A stretch of 64,000 bases of DNA from Isosphaeraceae bacterium EP7 (GTDB taxonomy: Bacteria; Planctomycetota; Planctomycetia; Isosphaerales; Isosphaeraceae), in assembly GCA_038400315.1 (NCBI GenBank), contig CP151667.1, positions 4,971,174 through 5,035,173 of the forward strand, given 5' to 3'. Of the stretch, positions 23,149 through 34,637 are shown piece after piece. The notes under the pieces were generated by a model that saw nothing but the letters and a program-made list of their open reading frames with translations, did no database searches and was not told where the DNA came from. A program made the translations under genes and the position numbers. Every line of letters begins with the position of its first letter. Positions within the stretch are counted from its first letter, which is position 1.

Positions 23149-25098
23149 TCAGCCAAGGACCGGATTCAGGCCCATGTTCTTGCGCATCTCGGCGCGTTGC
23201 TTCTCGTATTCCATCAAGAGCTTGCGATCGCGGAAATGCGACCGTTCCTTGCGGGCCTGGGCACGCAGGACGAGGTTACGCATGGACCGGCTGGTCAACT
23301 CGCCCTTACCCGCGTAGCGTTTGCGGATCCGGATCGCCGGCTTCTCGCCGTAAGCTTCAATGATCTCGTCTTCCAGCGAGACGAAGAACTGGCAGACGCC
23401 CGGATCGCCCTGGCGGGCACACCGGCCCGCGAGTTGACGGTCGACCCGGCGCGACTCGTGCCGCTCAGTCCCCATGACGTGCAGTCCGCCCTGCTCGCTC
23501 ACGTGATCGCCGAGCTTGATGTCCGTACCGCGCCCGGCCATATTGGTGGCGACGGTGACGCGGCCAGGTTGCCCGGCCTGCGAGACGATCTGGGCCTCGA
23601 TCTCATGGTTCTTGGCGTTCAGGACCTGATGCTCGATTCCCGCCGCGTTGAGCAAGGCGCTCAGCTTCTCAGACTTCTCGATCGATCGGGTGCCGACGAG
23701 CACGGGAACGTCGAGCTTGTTCCACTCGACGATCTGATCGGCAACGGCCTGGAACTTCTCGTCCTCGGTCGAGAAGATGCGGTCGGGGATCATCCGCCGC
23801 ATCCCCTTGCGATTGGTGGGGACGGGGAAGACCCTCAGCTTGTAGGTCCTGGACAGCTCGCGGGCGTCGGACGACGCGGTCCCGGTCATGCCGCCGAGCT
23901 TCTTGTATCGCAGGAAGAAGTCCTGAACGGTGACGCGGGCCGCCGTGATCGTCTCCAGGGTGACTTCCAGCTTTTCCTTGGCCTGGATCGCCTGGTGCAG
24001 CCCGTCCTGCCACTGCCTGCCCGGCATCAAGCGGCCGGTGAACTCATCGACAATGACAACCTCGTTGTCCATGACCACGTAATCGCGGTCCTTCAAGTAG
24101 GCGATCTGCCCGCGCAGGGCCCGCTCGACGTATTCGTAGAGCCCGTCCACCGTCAGGGTGACGAACGACGAGTGGCCGGCGACGGCCTGTACCTTGCGGC
24201 GGCCGGCGATGTTCAATTCGGCCTTACGCTCGGCGGGGTCGTACTTGAAGTCCTTGCCGCGGACCAGGGTCGCGGCAAGCTGGTCGGCGCCATAGTAGGC
24301 TGCCGCTTCTTCCTGGGTCGGCTGGTTGTTGGCCCCGATGATCAACGGGGTCCTGGCCTCGTCGATCAGGATGCTGTCGGCCTCGTCCACGATGCAGAAG
24401 TGATGGGTCCGCTGGACCGGCTTCTCGGAGTCGGCGTGCTGGCTCCGATTCAAGAACGCCTGCTCGAACGACTTGCGGTGGGTGTCGCCAAGCTGGAGCC
24501 GCTTGAGCTCGTCGCGGAGGAAGTCGAAGCCAAATTCCTTCGACGTCCCGTAGGTTATGTCCTGGTTGTAGGCATTCCGGCGCTCGGGATCGCTCATCCC
24601 CGTCTGGATGCAACCGACGGTCATGCCGAGCAGGGCGTAGACCTGCTGGTTCCAGTCGGCGTCGCGCTTGGCCAGGTAGTCATTGACTGTGACGACGTGC
24701 GTCCCTTTGCCTTGCAGGGCATTGAGATACGCCGGCAGCGTGGCGACGAGCGTCTTCCCCTCGCCGGTCTCCATCTCCGCGATGCATTTGAAATGGATGG
24801 CCGCGCCTCCGACAAGCTGGACGTCATAATGACGCTGCTTCACGGTGCGCTTGGCCGACTCGCGGACGAGGGCGAAGGCTTCGACGAGCAACCTGTTGAG
24901 CGACTCGCCCATCCGAGCCCGATGCCTGAGCGCCAGGCTCTTGGCGGCGAGACCGGCATCGGTCTCCGCTTCCAGCGCAGGCTCTAGCGCATTGATCTTG
25001 TCGACGAACAGGGCGTAGCGGCTGAGTCTCCCGGAATGGGTCGTGACCGCAAGACGCTGAACCTGGTTGTACCAATTCGGGCCGAGTCGACTCGCCAT
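23149..25098 (-). CDS. Short SecA-family translocase ATPase
   Basis: A 649-residue SecA homologue starting at MASRLGPNWYNQ. NBD1 has EMETGEGKTLVATLP (Walker A, about residues 108-122) and DEADSILIDEARTPLII (DEAD box); the preprotein-binding domain and NBD2 follow, with ATNMAGRGTDIKLG (motif V). Motif VI reads DRQLAGRCARQGDPG instead of the usual QLRGRxGRQGDPG. The protein ends inside the long helix of the scaffold domain (RSHFRDRKLLMEYEKQR), so the helical wing, two-helix finger and zinc-binding SEC-C tail of 800-900-residue SecA are absent. The end is a clean stop, not a frameshift. It may be a specialised second SecA or helicase-like relative. It follows the ftsQ-like gene on the same strand. 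Confidence 0.85.
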   Translation of the reverse strand: MASRLGPNWYNQVQRLAVTTHSGRLSRYALFVDKINALEPALEAETDAGLAAKSLALRHRARMGESLNRLLVEAFALVRESAKRTVKQRHYDVQLVGGAAIHFKCIAEMETGEGKTLVATLPAYLNALQGKGTHVVTVNDYLAKRDADWNQQVYALLGMTVGCIQTGMSDPERRNAYNQDITYGTSKEFGFDFLRDELKRLQLGDTHRKSFEQAFLNRSQHADSEKPVQRTHHFCIVDEADSILIDEARTPLIIGANNQPTQEEAAAYYGADQLAATLVRGKDFKYDPAERKAELNIAGRRKVQAVAGHSSFVTLTVDGLYEYVERALRGQIAYLKDRDYVVMDNEVVIVDEFTGRLMPGRQWQDGLHQAIQAKEKLEVTLETITAARVTVQDFFLRYKKLGGMTGTASSDARELSRTYKLRVFPVPTNRKGMRRMIPDRIFSTEDEKFQAVADQIVEWNKLDVPVLVGTRSIEKSEKLSALLNAAGIEHQVLNAKNHEIEAQIVSQAGQPGRVTVATNMAGRGTDIKLGDHVSEQGGLHVMGTERHESRRVDRQLAGRCARQGDPGVCQFFVSLEDEIIEAYGEKPAIRIRKRYAGKGELTSRSMRNLVLRAQARKERSHFRDRKLLMEYEKQRAEMRKNMGLNPVLG

Positions 25099-25272
25099 GA
25101 CCCCGGGTCTCCCTCTTCGATCGCGCACAACATCGGGCTACGAACACCTTGGATCGCGACGCCAGATCGCGGACGATTCGGCGCGCAGGCGTTCATCGAC
25201 AACGGGACAGGCACGACCCCGATCCTCCCGCGCGGTCGCACCGATTTCTCCGCGCGAGCGGAGGTTCGCGCG

Positions 25273-26337
25273 TCAACGAGCCGGTGCGGGCGAATCCGGC
25301 TCGGAGTTCGGGCGCAATCCGTGGCGACCGAAGATCAGGAAGTCGGGCCTGGAGAGGGATAAGGTCCCCTGACGCGAGACCCACTCCTGGAGAAACCGCC
25401 ATTTCGTCGCGGCATCGTGGCTCCCTGGCCGCTCGTCGCCGGGAGCTTCACCCCAGAGGATCGTGGTGCCGTCCGCGGTGCTGAGGAAAATGCCCCGACC
25501 CTCGTCGGGGAAGATCATCAAAATCGTCGGGGCGATCTTATCCGCGTCCTCTCGGTGCGTCCTGAGCAGCGCGGCCATCCGGGCCGCCCCTAACTGAGGG
25601 CTCATCGAGCCGGATTTGGCCACCGCAGTTGAGTTCGGTCGATCCGCTTCGTCGGGGGGTGACTTCCAGGGGTAGCCCGGCTTGCGCTCGTAAGGTCGGG
25701 GCACTTCGTTGGGTGGCCCGCTCGATTTGGTCTCGGTCTGGGTCACGATCCGGGGGAGCGGGCCCGTGGCCGTCCGGTCCAGGTCGTCCAGAGGCAGGAT
25801 GACGGCATCGCCGTCGATGACGTAATTCTCCGTGGGATCCTTCCAGGAGACGTACGCGACGGGCTCGCGGTAGCGGAGCTCGACCGTCAACTGGCGCGGG
25901 AACCTGGGCTCGACCCGAACGACCCTCTCGACCCAGGGACTATCCAGGGCGAAGGAGCGGTACAGGTTCTCGGGCTCAGCGGGGTCGAGGAGCGAGATCG
26001 GTCGGTTCCAGTGGCCGTCTCGCTGAACCGATTCCAGGATGCCCCGGGCTCCTGACTGGATCCATGGGGGTGGCTTCGGGGTCAGCTCGATCTCATCGAA
26101 GCGAATCTGATAAGTGTCCTGGCCGTGTAGCCACGCGCGGATCCCTGCGAGACCGCGGCTACCCCCGGCGAAAAGCGCCACGAAGAGTGCCAGGCCGAGG
26201 AGGATCGCGGCGATGAGCCTGGCACGGGCGATGTGACGGACCCCCGCAGGGCGAGAAAGGCCCGAGAACCTCCGGCGAAAGCCGTCGCCGGGACGACCTT
26301 CGGTCGCGCCGGATGGCGTCGGATCGCGGCGGTCCAT
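25273..26337 (-). CDS. ftsQ: FtsQ/DivIB-like cell division protein
   Basis: A 354-residue bitopic protein with GGAGGG seven bases before the ATG at 26337. A basic cytoplasmic head (about 45 residues) is followed by one transmembrane helix (AAILLGLALFVALFAGG) and a POTRA-like module (IRFDEIELTPKPPPW to PRFPRQLTVELRYREPVAYV, about residues 80-165). The FtsQ beta domain comes next, with YVIDGDAVILPLDDLDR, the usual post-POTRA strand. FtsQ normally links FtsB/FtsL to the septal peptidoglycan machinery. Planctomycetes lack FtsZ, so retention here is notable. A proline-rich stretch (PNEVPRPYERKPGYPW) interrupts the beta domain. Location directly after murB supports the call. Confidence 0.8.
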   Translation of the reverse strand: MDRRDPTPSGATEGRPGDGFRRRFSGLSRPAGVRHIARARLIAAILLGLALFVALFAGGSRGLAGIRAWLHGQDTYQIRFDEIELTPKPPPWIQSGARGILESVQRDGHWNRPISLLDPAEPENLYRSFALDSPWVERVVRVEPRFPRQLTVELRYREPVAYVSWKDPTENYVIDGDAVILPLDDLDRTATGPLPRIVTQTETKSSGPPNEVPRPYERKPGYPWKSPPDEADRPNSTAVAKSGSMSPQLGAARMAALLRTHREDADKIAPTILMIFPDEGRGIFLSTADGTTILWGEAPGDERPGSHDAATKWRFLQEWVSRQGTLSLSRPDFLIFGRHGLRPNSEPDSPAPAR

Positions 26338-26393
26338 CACCTAGCCCTCCGACATTCCGTCGTTCCCGGATTTCACGTCGACTTGTCGTCCGA

Positions 26394-27275
26394 CTACCAG
26401 ACCTGGATCTGAAGTTCCAGGTCGTAGCCGAATTGCTGCCGGACCCGGTCGCGGACCTGGTCGATCAGGGTGAGGACATCGGCGGAGGTGGCGCCACGCT
26501 CGGCCAGGATGTAGTTGGCGTGGCGATCCGACACCTCGGCGTGCCCGACCCGGGCGCCGCGCATGCCGGCCTGATCGATCAGCATGCCGGCGGAGACCTC
26601 TGGGCTCGGATTCTTGAAGATGCAGCCCGACGACTGGTGGCCGTAAGGCTGGTTTTCTTTCTTGATGATCCAGATCCGCCGCATTCGCTTGATGACCGTC
26701 TCTTGATCTTCCGACTCGAATTCGAGGCGGGCCGAGAGGACGATCTCGTCGTCCAGGTCCGACTTGCGGTACGAGAACCCGGCCTCGTCGCGATCGATCT
26801 CCTGGATCTGCCCGGCGGAGTCGAGCAGCGTGATGCTGCGGATGAACTGGCCGATGGCCCCCTGCCGTCCGCCGGAGTTTCCCTTGATCGCTCCACCCAG
26901 TGTTCCCGGGATGCCCGTGAGCAATTCCAGGCCGCCGAGACCGACGCGGGCCGTCTGAGAGATGAGGGCCGTCAGCGGGACGGCGGCGCCCGCCTCGACC
27001 CGGTTCCCTTCCACCTTCACGTCGGAGAACGAGGGGCTTTCCAGGTGGACGACCAGGCCCGGAACCCCCTCATCGCGGACGAGGATGTTGGAACCGCCGG
27101 CGAGCACGCGAACCGGTAACCCGGCTTCGCGCGCCCGGGCGACCAATCCTGCCAGCTCCTCGGCGTTGCTGGGCTTCGCCAGGAATTGCGCGGGGCCACC
27201 CAGGCGCAACCATGTATAAGCGGCCAGCGACTCAGCCGGCCTGACGATCTCGCGGAAGTCGTCCAAGGAATGCAT
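26394..27275 (-). CDS. murB: UDP-N-acetylenolpyruvoylglucosamine reductase MurB
   Basis: A 293-residue FAD enzyme that reduces UDP-GlcNAc-enolpyruvate to UDP-MurNAc in peptidoglycan synthesis. The FAD-binding PCMH-type fold is visible: NTxLRLGGPA equivalent at YTWLRLGGPAQF (20-31), VLAGGSNILV (58-66), GIPGTLGGAIKGNSG (121-135). The substrate tyrosine motif is FSYRKSD (167-173). The loop that carries the proton-donor serine in well-studied MurB reads SSGCIFKNP, with Cys218 in the serine position. The start lies 44 bases inside the murC-like gene, suggesting translational coupling. It is of the shorter (type IIb) class. Confidence 0.95.
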   Translation of the reverse strand: MHSLDDFREIVRPAESLAAYTWLRLGGPAQFLAKPSNAEELAGLVARAREAGLPVRVLAGGSNILVRDEGVPGLVVHLESPSFSDVKVEGNRVEAGAAVPLTALISQTARVGLGGLELLTGIPGTLGGAIKGNSGGRQGAIGQFIRSITLLDSAGQIQEIDRDEAGFSYRKSDLDDEIVLSARLEFESEDQETVIKRMRRIWIIKKENQPYGHQSSGCIFKNPSPEVSAGMLIDQAGMRGARVGHAEVSDRHANYILAERGATSADVLTLIDQVRDRVRQQFGYDLELQIQVW

Positions 27276-28608
27276 CGGCGATCGTTCCCACCTGACCCGA
27301 GCCCAGGGTGATCAGGACGTCCCCGGGCTCCAACTGCCGATCCAGGCGGTCCACCGCCTCGTCGCGATCCGCGACCGAAACCGCCGAGACGCCCTGCTCA
27401 TCCAGTGAGCGGACGGCCGAGGTCCAGGTCCCGCACAGACCTTCGCGCCCCACGACCAGGACGCGATCGGCCCTGGACAGCGGCGCCACGAAGGCCTCGG
27501 CCAGGTCGGTCGACCCACGGCCCGGGCCCAAGACGGCCCAGAGCCTGCGTCGCCCGTAAATCATCCGGCCGACGGAGAGTGTTTCGTCCACCGAAACCGG
27601 GTCCTGAGCCTCATCGTCCACCAGTGTAACACCCCGGAAGCTGCCGCGGGACTCGAAACCGCGCGAAACGCCCGCGAACTCCTCGAGCGCATCCCGGATG
27701 GCGGGGACCGGTACATCAAGCCGCATGCCCGCGGCGAGGGCGGCCAAGGCGCAGAGCACTGGCCCGAGCCCCGGGACTCTCAACCGGATCTCGGCCACGA
27801 ACGTCCCCTGGTAGAACGCGCGGAAACGAAATCGACCCTTGTCCTCGCGCAGGTCGGCTCCCCACCAGTCGTCCTCACGCCTGAGTCCAACCTTCTCGAC
27901 CGGCCCTGTGCCACGCATCCGTAGCTCGCCCAGCTCGAGGTCACCGGCCACAAGCACGCCGCCACGCGACACATCGGCCGAGGATTCGATCAAGCTGCGG
28001 ATTGTCGGCGAAACGGCCGGGCCGGTTGCCGTGATCATGAGCAGGGTCAACCAGGGGGCGAGTTGCTCGATCTCCTCGGGTTCGCATGCGGTCTCGATCA
28101 CCGCCGTCGGTCCCCGTCCCAGCCGGCCCCAGCCCCCGAGTTGCGACGAACGGGTCGCCAGAACGACGGTCGGGTCCATCCCCGCACGGGTCAGGACGCC
28201 GGCCATCATCGCGCCAGCGAGGCCCGAGCCCCTGCCGCCGGAAACCGCGACAGCCAGCTTGCCACCGACCAACTGCCTGAGGATCTCGGCCCGGCTCGAT
28301 TGAGGGGAGCCCGCCTTCAGTGCTGCAAGACGCTCAGGATGCTCTCGACCCTTGCTGACGTCGTAAACGAGGAAGTGAGGGCGCCTTGGCAGATGGCCTG
28401 GCGCGTGCCCCTCGTGGACCCGGATCCCCAGGCGCCTCAGGCCGTCGAGCTCCGGCCCTGCCGCGTCGTCGGACCCGCTGACGAGCAGTCCGCTCTGCGA
28501 CAGAACTTGCGCAATTCCGGACATGCCACGGCCGCCCAGACCGACCAGGTGCGCGCATCGCGGCCCGAAGGCCACGCCGGCTGTTTCCCGATCTGTCTCG
28601 TCTCGCAT
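27232..28608 (-). CDS. MurC-like Mur ligase homologue lacking catalytic motifs
   Basis: A 458-residue protein with the full three-domain layout of UDP-MurNAc:L-alanine ligase. The N-terminal UDP-binding domain is good (HLVGLGGRGMSGIAQVL, about 20-36, then VSGSD). The ATP site is not. The expected GTHGKTTT reads GGRGSGLA (124-131), with Lys replaced by Ser128. The EADESD region reads ETACEP, TNIxxDHxD reads ITATGPAVSP, HNVLN reads GPVLC, and DDYAHHP reads DDEAQDP. The frame is intact, with an AAGGA ribosome site and normal codon use, so this looks like a maintained pseudoenzyme rather than a decaying gene. It precedes and overlaps murB. ATP-dependent ligation seems impossible as read; a regulatory or UDP-MurNAc-binding role is inference. 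Confidence 0.85.
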   Translation of the reverse strand: MRDETDRETAGVAFGPRCAHLVGLGGRGMSGIAQVLSQSGLLVSGSDDAAGPELDGLRRLGIRVHEGHAPGHLPRRPHFLVYDVSKGREHPERLAALKAGSPQSSRAEILRQLVGGKLAVAVSGGRGSGLAGAMMAGVLTRAGMDPTVVLATRSSQLGGWGRLGRGPTAVIETACEPEEIEQLAPWLTLLMITATGPAVSPTIRSLIESSADVSRGGVLVAGDLELGELRMRGTGPVEKVGLRREDDWWGADLREDKGRFRFRAFYQGTFVAEIRLRVPGLGPVLCALAALAAGMRLDVPVPAIRDALEEFAGVSRGFESRGSFRGVTLVDDEAQDPVSVDETLSVGRMIYGRRRLWAVLGPGRGSTDLAEAFVAPLSRADRVLVVGREGLCGTWTSAVRSLDEQGVSAVSVADRDEAVDRLDRQLEPGDVLITLGSGQVGTIADAFLGRLPRDRQAG

Positions 28609-28833
28609 GGGCCGATTCCTTCTCAATCCAGGGCGTGTCGGCCGGCCTGCACCCGAATGGATACCGCCGCCGCACGACCATTCGATCCAGGCCTAGTTAT
28701 CGTCGCGATCGATCCAACCGGCCCACACTTTCCGACCCTCCCACGCAAGAATCCTGTGTAAGGCGTGAATTCTGATCTAGGACAACCTCAAAATGGACAG
28801 CTTAATCATGCTCAGCGAAGATTTTTTCGAACG

Positions 28834-29238: not shown

Positions 29239-31872
29239 TCAGCCAGAACCTTTTGAGGCAACCGACGCCTGGAAGATCGCATTGAAGAGAAGCCGAAACG
29301 TCCCGTAAGTCTGTCCGCGATGCTGAGGGGGAAACCCGAAGAGCAGGATTCGGCCGTCTCCTCGCTTCGCCTCGACAATCGCCGCCTTACCCTGGAGTCT
29401 CCCCGCGCCGAGCAGCCATCCACTCTCGAGGACGTCCGTCGAGGCATAGCGAGCGACGATCGTTGGGGGCGGATCGGACCTCGGGACCATCTCGGATTGC
29501 ACCTCGAACGCGTGCGAGCGGTCGAAATAGGCCGATCCTCTCGCGGGGAATCCCGCCATCAGCGGGTCGGTCGTGGTGGCCACGATGCCCAGGATCGATC
29601 CCGGCCCGTAGAACTCGGACGATTTCAGGCCTTTCAGAACGTCGACAACGGGCAGTGAAAACGCGTCGATCGCATATTGACACGAACCCTCAAGGCAGAT
29701 AAGCGTCCCACCCTCCTCGACGAAGGCGACGAGGGCGACTCGGCCTTCAGCACCCAGTCCTCCCACGAACGCAGGCTCGGTCTCGTCGGGCCCCCATCCA
29801 TCGCGAATGGTGCCTGGGTCGACGGAAGGCAGGATGATGGCGTCGTACCGCTGTCGAAGCTCGCCGACTCGGATCGACGCATTCTCAAGCGTCGTCGGCC
29901 GGAACCCGGCCGTTTCCAGGACGAGACGAGTCCAGCCCTCGTCCAGGCTCGGGATCCATGGTTTGTAAACGCCGACCCTGGGTGCTTTCAGGTTCAGGTG
30001 GATGGCCCGCTGAGCCGGGGCGCCGGGCTGCTCGGGCATCTCGGGTTCGATGATTGCGTTCAGCCGACTTGAGGTCCCTTCAAGCACCTTCAACAGTGGC
30101 TTATCGCCTGTCTTCGCCGGCCGGATCCGGATCGAGGCCCGATCGAGGTCCTCGGCCGGGGCATCGGGCCGGAAGTCCAGCGTCGCCTCAGCCCCTTGCG
30201 CGAGTAAGGCGTTGAGTGCCTTGTTGTCGTCGACGGAGCGGAGCGCCAGCCGATAGGTGTCGGCCGCGCCACCTACGACTTCGGGTTCCGGGACTTCGAT
30301 CGTTTCGAGTTCGTCCATCTGGGCCAGAAATGTTCCGCGGATTGAGACCGCCCTTACGCCCATCTGGAGCGGCAAAGTCCAGCCTGCCACGTCGTATGGA
30401 GCCTCGGCCTGGCCGTTCGGGGTGAATCGGTCGGGATAAATCTGCCGCTCCATCATGTCCTTGAGATGGGCCCGGTAGGGTTGCGCCGCGGGTAGAATGA
30501 AGGAACCAGCGGGGAAGGCCGCGCCGTCGGCCTCGAAGGCCTTGGACGCGCGAAGGACATCGATGCCCGTCTCGCGGAGGATCCGGACCATCCGCGTCGC
30601 CGTTGCGAGGTCACGCTGGTCGGCAGGGACGATCCAGGCGTAGGGGGGCTCGGTGCTCCCACGCGTGATCGCATCTCGGCCCATCTGTAAGTAATTTGCC
30701 TGAAGAGTCGGGCCATAACGTGCCGCGTAGGTGAGGATCGAACGGCAGCAGATGAGCTGGTCCTCGACGATATCGCGCAGCCTCCACCAGCCTCCCGGCC
30801 ACGGGGTGACGAAGTTCACCGCAGCCCGATGATCGGCGAAGCCACGGGAACCGCCCCTCAGCTCAGACTTCTCCACGAAGATGGGGCTTGCCAGGCGGAC
30901 GCTGGCCGACTCGGTGAGCACCGCGACGATGTTGTGTCGCTGCGGCACCGTGCGGTTCCCGCCGTTCCACCAGTTGTCGTACATCGCGTTGGTCAGCACG
31001 CCCTTGCGGCCTGCCGCGGCGAGGTCGGCCGCCATATGAGATCCGACGTTCGAGATCCCCTGGTTCACCCGAGGATCGAGGTTGGGGTTGATTGGGTCGA
31101 AGAACGGCGGCACGAAGATACGCGCACCCTTGCTTCCCATCTGGTGAATGTCGTACGCCAGGGTCGGGAACCAGTCGCGGTAGAGCAGTCGCGTCATCAG
31201 CTGGGTTTCACGCAGATTCAGCATGAACCAGTCCCGGTTGGTGTCATGCCCTGCATATTTATGATAAAGCTCGGGCATGCCCCCCCCTTCCCAGGGCTTT
31301 CCCCGCGAGCGCTCGTACCATGCGGCGACCTTGTCGACCCCGTCCGGATTGATCGATGGGACGAGTAGGAGGATGACCTTGTCGAGTATCTCTCGCGTCG
31401 TGGGGTCATCCTTGGTGGCGAGGTCGTGGAGCAATTCCATCGCCGTGTGGGTCGAGGCGGTCTCCGACGAGTGGATCGAGCAGGTGATGAGGACTACCGG
31501 CTTGCTCCTGGCGAGGAACGACAGTCCCTCCGCCCCGACCTTGCGGGGATCGGCAATCAATTTTTGATAGCCTCGAAAGGTGTCGAGTTGAGTGATCGTC
31601 TCCGGGCTCGACACCACCGCAACAAGGAAGGGTCTCCCCTCGGTGCTCTCCCCAAGCCTGAGCACAGCAACGCGTTCGCTGGCCCGATCCACGGCCTGCG
31701 TATAGTCGACCACCTTCGGCCAGGTCACTAGGCGGAAGTCCTCTCCCATCCGGAATCCGAACCATCTCAACGGCGAAGGAATCTCCGCGGCGAGCGTTGC
31801 CTGCGAGACTCCAAGCAGGCTCAGGAACGCGAGTCGGGCCGAGACGCGAAAGAGATTGCGGCGTGTCGACAT
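29239..31872 (-). CDS. M14 family zinc carboxypeptidase-like protein
   Basis: An 877-residue exported protein. The ATG at 31872 (product MSTRRNLFRVSARLAFLSLL) is chosen because GGAG lies seven bases upstream and a signal peptide ending TLAAE follows. The M14 domain occupies about residues 35-390. HSSETAS in ITCSIHSSETASTHTAMELL supplies the HxxE zinc ligands, PSINPDGVD and NRDWFMLNLRETQ are typical substrate-binding segments, and YDIHQMGSKG supplies the third ligand histidine. A long C-terminal region (about 420-877) contains a class I amidotransferase-like or beta-galactosidase-trimerisation-like segment (ALVAFVEEGGTLICLEGS). Family members are probable peptidases of the periplasm; substrate unknown. 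Confidence 0.87.
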   Translation of the reverse strand: MSTRRNLFRVSARLAFLSLLGVSQATLAAEIPSPLRWFGFRMGEDFRLVTWPKVVDYTQAVDRASERVAVLRLGESTEGRPFLVAVVSSPETITQLDTFRGYQKLIADPRKVGAEGLSFLARSKPVVLITCSIHSSETASTHTAMELLHDLATKDDPTTREILDKVILLLVPSINPDGVDKVAAWYERSRGKPWEGGGMPELYHKYAGHDTNRDWFMLNLRETQLMTRLLYRDWFPTLAYDIHQMGSKGARIFVPPFFDPINPNLDPRVNQGISNVGSHMAADLAAAGRKGVLTNAMYDNWWNGGNRTVPQRHNIVAVLTESASVRLASPIFVEKSELRGGSRGFADHRAAVNFVTPWPGGWWRLRDIVEDQLICCRSILTYAARYGPTLQANYLQMGRDAITRGSTEPPYAWIVPADQRDLATATRMVRILRETGIDVLRASKAFEADGAAFPAGSFILPAAQPYRAHLKDMMERQIYPDRFTPNGQAEAPYDVAGWTLPLQMGVRAVSIRGTFLAQMDELETIEVPEPEVVGGAADTYRLALRSVDDNKALNALLAQGAEATLDFRPDAPAEDLDRASIRIRPAKTGDKPLLKVLEGTSSRLNAIIEPEMPEQPGAPAQRAIHLNLKAPRVGVYKPWIPSLDEGWTRLVLETAGFRPTTLENASIRVGELRQRYDAIILPSVDPGTIRDGWGPDETEPAFVGGLGAEGRVALVAFVEEGGTLICLEGSCQYAIDAFSLPVVDVLKGLKSSEFYGPGSILGIVATTTDPLMAGFPARGSAYFDRSHAFEVQSEMVPRSDPPPTIVARYASTDVLESGWLLGAGRLQGKAAIVEAKRGDGRILLFGFPPQHRGQTYGTFRLLFNAIFQASVASKGSG

Positions 31873-32156
31873 GGATCGACTCCAGTCTGGTCGCGGATCA
31901 ACATCTAGAAAGGAAGGCGATCCCACGAATCCGATCTTCTCTTCCACGATGGTCGGGCTTGACGTCACCGCGGTCAAGCAAGCGGGAGGGACTTATCTCT
32001 CCCATAATTTGGCGAGATTCGCAGGGAGATTTGGTCGCATGTGTGGTAAGAATTCGTCATGAATTAAGTTTTGAATCCCCCTCTCGCAATCGTCCGACTC
32101 GTGTGCAATGATTCCAGAATCGTTCCCCTCTGCTCCTCTTGCGAATAAATCGGAGT

Positions 32157-33215
<1,059 letters not shown>

Positions 33216-33578
33216 CGGGAGTTCTTGAATCACGAGGAATCCCGGGTCCGCGATTGGGCCCCGGGATTTCTCGTTGACTCGCCCGGGAGTGGGCAAATGG
33301 GCCATGGTCCCGATCGATGTCGATCGGGAGGCTCTTGCCGGATCGCTCCAAACGCGACCCACGCCGCAAATTCCGGCATTTGATGCGTCGTGAACTGCGG
33401 CGGATCGTGCATTGAACTCATCAGGCGATAGGATCGGAGACGGATCTCTGTCTCTCATTCCATGCATGCCGAGAGACAATCATGGATTATTCTGTGTTTA
33501 GCCCTGTCAATCTTCTTGTTTGATTGCAATGATCATCTAAGCAGTAAGTTGTCCGGTTTAACTAAAGAATCCAAGGAA

Positions 33579-33587
<9 letters not shown>
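33216..33587 (+). other. Intergenic region between the tandem DUF1559 genes
   Basis: A 372-base stretch holding a terminator hairpin at 33234-33272. Beyond it no supported gene is seen. The last 100 bases are relatively AT-rich (for example TTGTTTGATTGCAATGATC), which suits a promoter for the second gene, but no specific -35/-10 pair can be called. Confidence 0.5.
33234..33272 (+). terminator. Inverted repeat, likely terminator of first DUF1559 gene
   Basis: GAGGAATCCCGGG (33234-33246) pairs with 33260-33272 with one G-T mismatch and a 13-base loop. It lies 19 bases after the stop of the first DUF1559 gene, separating it from its tandem copy. Confidence 0.6.

Positions 33588-34637
<1,050 letters not shown>

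Follow-up and report, generated by a model that had tools for sequence, protein, structure and literature searches.

In flowering plants, which have dismantled the peptidoglycan pathway, the MurE homologue PAP11 now serves as a subunit of the plastid RNA polymerase, and most plant MurEs keep many catalytic residues (PMC12681378). In Opitutae (Verrucomicrobia), a long MurB has been described that carries a strongly diverged N-terminal Mur ligase domain and is a MurC-MurB fusion (PMC4803751), and it has been proposed that Mur enzymes assemble into complexes in the cytoplasm (PMC6420597). Among planctomycetes, peptidoglycan genes are reported to be notably absent in most Planctomycetales (PMC8567305), Paludisphaera borealis to hold several but not all of them, including murB, murE and mraY (PMC5352709), and murB to be highly conserved across Planctomycetia, although P. 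limnophila can do without it (PMC10632474). Four planctomycete strains from other groups were shown to contain peptidoglycan (PMC5147048), which counts against assuming its absence in Isosphaeraceae. How planctomycetes divide and maintain their envelope when FtsZ is missing and, in some groups, most peptidoglycan genes as well, is the wider question to which such Mur proteins belong.

Here we analyzed a window of 64,000 nucleotides, the whole stretch of DNA examined, from Isosphaeraceae bacterium EP7 (genome 7.2 Mb, 99.89% complete). It contains a MurC homologue that has lost the catalytic motifs of the family, referred to below as pseudo-MurC. This protein is very probably a pseudoenzyme that selection maintains, in a lineage whose peptidoglycan pathway no longer works.

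The MurC homologue and its locus

A first-pass annotation of the window had described an intact frame with replaced catalytic motifs, and both points were borne out. The 458-aa frame runs from ATG to stop, with an alternative TTG start at 28626 in the same frame, six codons earlier, and each motif named at the time proved to be replaced in alignments to solved MurCs. The P-loop GTHGKTTT reads GGRGSGLA, with Ser128 in place of Lys, EADE reads ETAC, DDYGHHP reads DDEAQDP, and both HNxxN and PHR are gone.

MurC was the best family for the protein, yet its TIGR01082 score of 172 bits lies below the cut-off of 335.1. Pfam detected Mur_ligase (PF01225, 1.1e-14) and Mur_ligase_C (PF02875, 1.6e-13) and did not find PF08245, the ATP-binding middle domain. 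The best AlphaFold model, built from an 11-sequence alignment, reached a mean pLDDT of 83.3 (69.1-76.7 in the other four) and a pTM of 0.78, and it has the three-domain Mur ligase fold. Its nearest solved structures were MurCs (1p3d, Z 39.3, rmsd 3.6 over 437 residues), and 8r6s_Q, a chain of plastid RNA polymerase, took rank 45 in the Foldseek list. The protein therefore combines a homologous fold, as predicted, with the loss of catalytic residues that marks a pseudoenzyme.

One further claim of the annotation held in part. The N-terminal UDP-binding motif, a glycine loop reading GLGGRGMS, is present in the EP7 protein but is not uniform in its orthologues: G23, G28 and M29 are kept across the clade, whereas G26 occurs in 5 of 10.

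Table 1. Coordinates of the genes discussed; positions are those of the window unless a genome or locus is given.
Feature	Position	Strand	Remarks
SecA	23149..25128	minus	659 aa; next in conserved gene order
ftsQ-like gene	25273..26340	minus	355 aa; relatives share gene order
MurB-like flavoprotein	26394..27275	minus	293 aa; TIGR00179 180.4 bits, above cut-off 144.5
pseudo-MurC	27232..28608	minus	458 aa, ATG to stop; MurC fold (predicted) without catalytic motifs
M14-type peptidase gene	29239..31977	minus	upstream of pseudo-MurC; PF00246
Prepilin-like gene, first copy	32139-33215	plus	adjacent to second copy
Prepilin-like gene, second copy	33462-34637	plus	closely similar to first copy
MurE-like protein of EP7	G000:C1 about 3521200-3522700 (L004 1159-2634)	minus	244.1 against cut-off 257.3
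Cyanophycin synthetase of EP7	G000:C1:4839691-4840542		NF010623 1062.7 bits, cut-off 877
pseudo-MurC of G259	L245 6100-7560	minus	beside a MurB that keeps Glu

The annotated coupling to murB and ftsQ was also confirmed, since murB starts 44 nt inside the pseudo-MurC gene and is followed by the ftsQ-like gene. The product of the latter matched no NCBIfam or Pfam model, and its name rests on position and on the label of the annotation. The overlap with murB measures 44 nt in nine and 41 nt in two of the 11 Isosphaeraceae pseudo-MurC genes, and 17-44 nt in intact relatives, leaving aside the 467-nt overlap of locus L246, an apparent artefact of extension past its stop. Because intact MurCs of other families overlap murB too, the arrangement is no sign of a special partnership with MurB; it does account for part of the conserved pseudo-MurC C-terminus. 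At eight Isosphaeraceae loci without pseudo-MurC, the M14 peptidase gene stands directly before murB, at some 200-280 nt.

Elsewhere in the window, SecA is short and falls below curated cut-offs (707.4 against 800 for TIGR00963), and two closely similar adjacent genes with a prepilin-like N-terminal motif (FTLIELLVVISIIAVLIALLLPAVQ) form a tandem duplication.

Distribution, descent and constraint

Orthologues of pseudo-MurC were found in 11 of 45 Isosphaeraceae genomes, representing 7 of 21 genera, and are adjacent to murB in every case. A search for hidden copies with the EP7 protein at 44 murB loci (E 0.01) returned the same 11 only; in at least three of the 44 loci (L109, L137 and L138) the contig stops short of the upstream gene. 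None of the 11 copies has the P-loop Lys or either His of DYAHH, and Arg stands at the site of the P-loop His in every one. In a tree with 21 other MurCs, they formed one clade with full support (100/100). On a tree of 49 MurBs of at least 200 aa (41 from the family and 8 from outside, covering 10 of the 11 pseudo-MurC genomes, with G019 dropped), the presence of pseudo-MurC requires at least three changes, a pattern that fits ancestral presence followed by repeated loss.

The comparison of orthologues had been set beforehand as a test that could refute a maintained pseudoenzyme. It revealed no intact relatives in the family, and recent decay of a single copy is ruled out because the motifs are missing from every one of the 11 copies, which group in a single clade. 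The genome search proposed in the annotation found no second, intact MurC: no match exceeded the TIGR01082 cut-off in the 99.89%-complete EP7 genome, in which pseudo-MurC itself is the best match and the others are cyanophycin synthetase and the MurE-like protein.

To describe which positions changed, we used 51 intact MurCs of the class as a reference, which also served for dN/dS; these remain from 60 class MurCs once L233 and eight sequences containing a stop are excluded. In-frame stops flagged in eight class MurCs turned out to be the ordinary stop at or near the match end. Of the 47 positions conserved at ≥95% in the reference, 16 are kept at ≥90% in pseudo-MurCs, 11 have the same commonest residue more loosely kept, and 20 have a different one, including the P-loop His and Lys, HNxxN, and the Tyr and both His of DYAHH. 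A total of 33 positions are newly conserved relative to intact MurC, a count inflated by the small related clade. Newly conserved blocks include QLGG at 156-159, and Arg126 is invariant at the P-loop His site.

Four within-genus pairs of pseudo-MurC, compared with the last 18 codons (the murB overlap) omitted, gave dN/dS values of 0.211, 0.271, 0.181 and 0.251. For the Singulisphaera pair (dS 0.32, dN/dS 0.211), the bootstrap interval was 0.143-0.292, against a mean of 0.95 and a minimum of 0.54 in neutral simulations; for the second simulated pair, the interval was 0.134-0.237, against a mean of 1.35 and a minimum of 0.86. A stop was gained in 175 and 155 of 200 neutral runs, respectively. 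The ratio was far under neutral in the outer and middle parts of the protein alike. Purifying selection clearly keeps pseudo-MurC, as both simulated pairs lie below every neutral simulation.

In the same pairs, dN/dS was 0.020-0.142 for murB, 0.23-0.59 for the ftsQ-like gene (three pairs) and 0.035 for SecA (one pair). Since the ftsQ-like values are as high or higher, the constraint on pseudo-MurC is not unusual within the cluster. Constraint nevertheless looks looser than on active MurC, a comparison that rests mainly on the closer Singulisphaera pair: 14 pairs of intact MurCs at ≥87% identity, which share genomes and so are not independent, gave 0.032-0.107, against 0.21 in the comparable pseudo-MurC pair at 88% identity. 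Eleven more distant intact pairs (dS 1.1-1.3) gave 0.37-0.54, above two pseudo-MurC pairs at similar dS, and we ascribe these high values to saturation.

The looser constraint and the patchy distribution invite a different reading, namely that the gene is a dying relic with little or no present function, whose frame lingers through the internal murB start, possible translational coupling and slow decay. The 34 of 45 family genomes without the gene and the three or more changes on the MurB tree are what repeated loss predicts, and the difference between 0.21 and 0.032-0.107 points the same way. What speaks against decay is that dN/dS stays far below neutral with the overlap excluded and in outer and middle parts, that frames are open in 11 of 11 copies from seven genera at 43-49% identity to the EP7 protein, and that new positions have become conserved, even if their number of 33 is inflated by the small clade. 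We consider a relic possible, though rather unlikely. A maintained pseudoenzyme, as the annotation had suggested, agrees better with 11 of 11 copies without motifs in one clade and with dN/dS of 0.18-0.27.

MurB and the peptidoglycan pathway

MurB was found in 44 of 45 Isosphaeraceae genomes. Its C-terminal Glu, which we take to be the catalytic Glu of E. coli (E325) and S. aureus MurB, is replaced in all 42 readable family copies (Gln in 36, Arg in 4, Ala in 1 and Asn in 1); in EP7, the Gln in LELQIQVW aligns to the conserved Glu of solved MurBs. Outside the family, Glu is kept in 27 of 27 MurBs located next to MurC in two other families (28 loci tried, L009 giving no match, in 26 genomes, 25 of f2 and one of f6) and in 4 of 4 in a third. 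The site of E. coli Ser229 is Cys in all 27 outside MurBs and in 35 of 42 family copies, with Leu, Tyr or Thr in the other seven, and 31 of the 42 share the form KENQPYG. With the Glu replaced, Isosphaeraceae MurB is predicted no longer to reduce UDP-GlcNAc-enolpyruvate.

Conserved novelties of this kind could also mean that pseudo-MurC is a changed enzyme, a Mur fold with another activity or ligand and new conserved residues in the old pocket. The invariant Arg126 at the P-loop His site, new blocks such as QLGG 156-159, and the conserved forms peculiar to the family MurB (KENQPYG in 31 of 42, Gln for Glu in 36 of 42) would suit such a change; no recognisable nucleotide or metal site is left, however, and we regard it as improbable.

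Profile searches of the 45 Isosphaeraceae genomes found no MurA, MurG or MraY over the cut-off, with weak matches in 40, 16 and 45 genomes, respectively, and no FtsW/RodA. The identity of the weak matches was checked for the MurA-like match of EP7 alone, which proved to be AroA (429.7 bits, cut-off 287.25). Neither the DYAH-type nor the DHxDxH-type motif survives in any of five aligned MurE-like proteins of the family, and the P-loop Lys is kept in 4 of the 5. The family thus seems, from these profile searches, to have lost most genes for making peptidoglycan, in line with the published gene losses cited above, and counts of murB and murC annotations would mislead as evidence of a wall.

Transpeptidase matches occurred in two of the 45 genomes, one in G064 and three in G003, an 85%-complete MAG in which no murB was found. 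One of the latter matches lies on contig C163 (L139, G003:C163:1-8000), which carries a motif-intact MurE beside the transpeptidase, in a genome without murB or pseudo-MurC. Contamination is possible, given the incomplete MAG, the intact MurE and transpeptidase on C163, and the lack of murB.

The missing steps bear on the proposal of the annotation that pseudo-MurC may sense UDP-MurNAc or regulate MurB or division. The glycine loop is kept in the EP7 protein, as are G23, G28 and M29 in the clade, but with no MurA over the cut-off in 45 of 45 genomes and a MurB without its Glu, the cell should not make UDP-MurNAc, and G26 is present in 5 of 10 orthologues. We therefore consider the sensor very improbable, while it is possible that pseudo-MurC regulates MurB or division in another way. 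That the protein is still an active MurC with very unusual residues, as its predicted MurC fold and cluster position might suggest, is scarcely credible from the sequences, because the P-loop Lys and both His are lost in 11 of 11 copies and neighbouring pathway steps are missing.

One further pseudo-MurC was found in genome G259, from another family of the class, where it lacks the P-loop Lys and HH. It is the sole case among 79 loci checked outside Isosphaeraceae, which cover 79 of the 98 outside genomes that gave a match (the other 19 had partial or unretrieved matches). Two other apparent P-loop losses were variant P-loops (GAHGKST in L238 and GTAGKTT in L242). A common origin with the Isosphaeraceae clade was rejected, as the tree groups G259 with intact MurCs of its part of the class. 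Among 13 chosen genomes searched for transpeptidase, G259 has none, as is also the case for G253, whereas a single one is present in each of the three relatives of G259 in its family, whose MurC is intact.

Proposed history and comparison with known systems

We propose that the ancestors of Isosphaeraceae gave up the peptidoglycan pathway, and that the MurC of an old murC-murB-ftsQ cluster would have lost ATP and substrate catalysis once, before the carrier genera split. The folded pseudo-MurC may then have kept a job needing no ligation, perhaps by supporting another protein structurally or allosterically; the likeliest partner would be the MurB-like flavoprotein, whose gene overlaps its own. 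Such a job would be dispensable, since most sampled genera have lost the pseudo-MurC gene. Taken as a whole, this account, in which a pseudoligase of the dcw cluster survives without catalysis, possibly as a partner to the altered MurB, and has disappeared from most genera, could equally prove right or wrong; the partnership with MurB is a tentative part of it, and we would expect it to fail somewhat sooner than to hold.

In-place inheritance, motif loss, the predicted fold, purifying selection, the altered MurB and a pathway mostly absent by profile search all support this account, and the second, independent pseudo-MurC in a transpeptidase-free genome counts for it. The strongest objection to a partner role is that MurB persists where pseudo-MurC is gone: murB is present in 33 family genomes without detected pseudo-MurC, and MurB therefore does not need it. 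The pseudo-MurC of G259 beside a Glu-keeping MurB and the transpeptidase matches in two family genomes also count against the account. On a broader and unlikely view, the Mur remnants of Isosphaeraceae (pseudo-MurC, MurB with a rebuilt site, the MurE-like and the ftsQ-like proteins) would form a peptidoglycan-independent cytoplasmic module in budding division or envelope assembly. Mur proteins that selection still maintains after the pathway itself has gone are candidates for reuse.

That these bacteria have lost peptidoglycan genes is already published, and neither pseudoenzymes nor relic Mur genes are new as such. No report of a pseudo-MurC shared across a family, or of a MurB whose Glu is replaced throughout one, was found in the open-licence literature, though either may be in print elsewhere; in the same literature, 'Mur ligase' and 'pseudoenzyme' were not found together, and matches for inactive MurC look unrelated. 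The reports on gene loss in Planctomycetales and on non-essential murB (PMC8567305, PMC10632474) concern the same bacteria, and their available excerpts mention no inactive MurC or altered MurB site.

Compared with MurC as defined by TIGR01082, pseudo-MurC is homologous over its full length, shares the fold and is also placed before murB, but it falls under the curated cut-off, its catalytic motifs are gone, and no substrate supply was found in the genome. The long MurB of Opitutae likewise ties a diverged MurC-like part to MurB within the same superphylum, but as one fused protein. PAP11 differs in being a MurE rather than a MurC, in belonging to plants and in having a known partner, but by analogy it offers a parallel to what we propose for pseudo-MurC, a Mur ligase that may have been reused outside wall synthesis.
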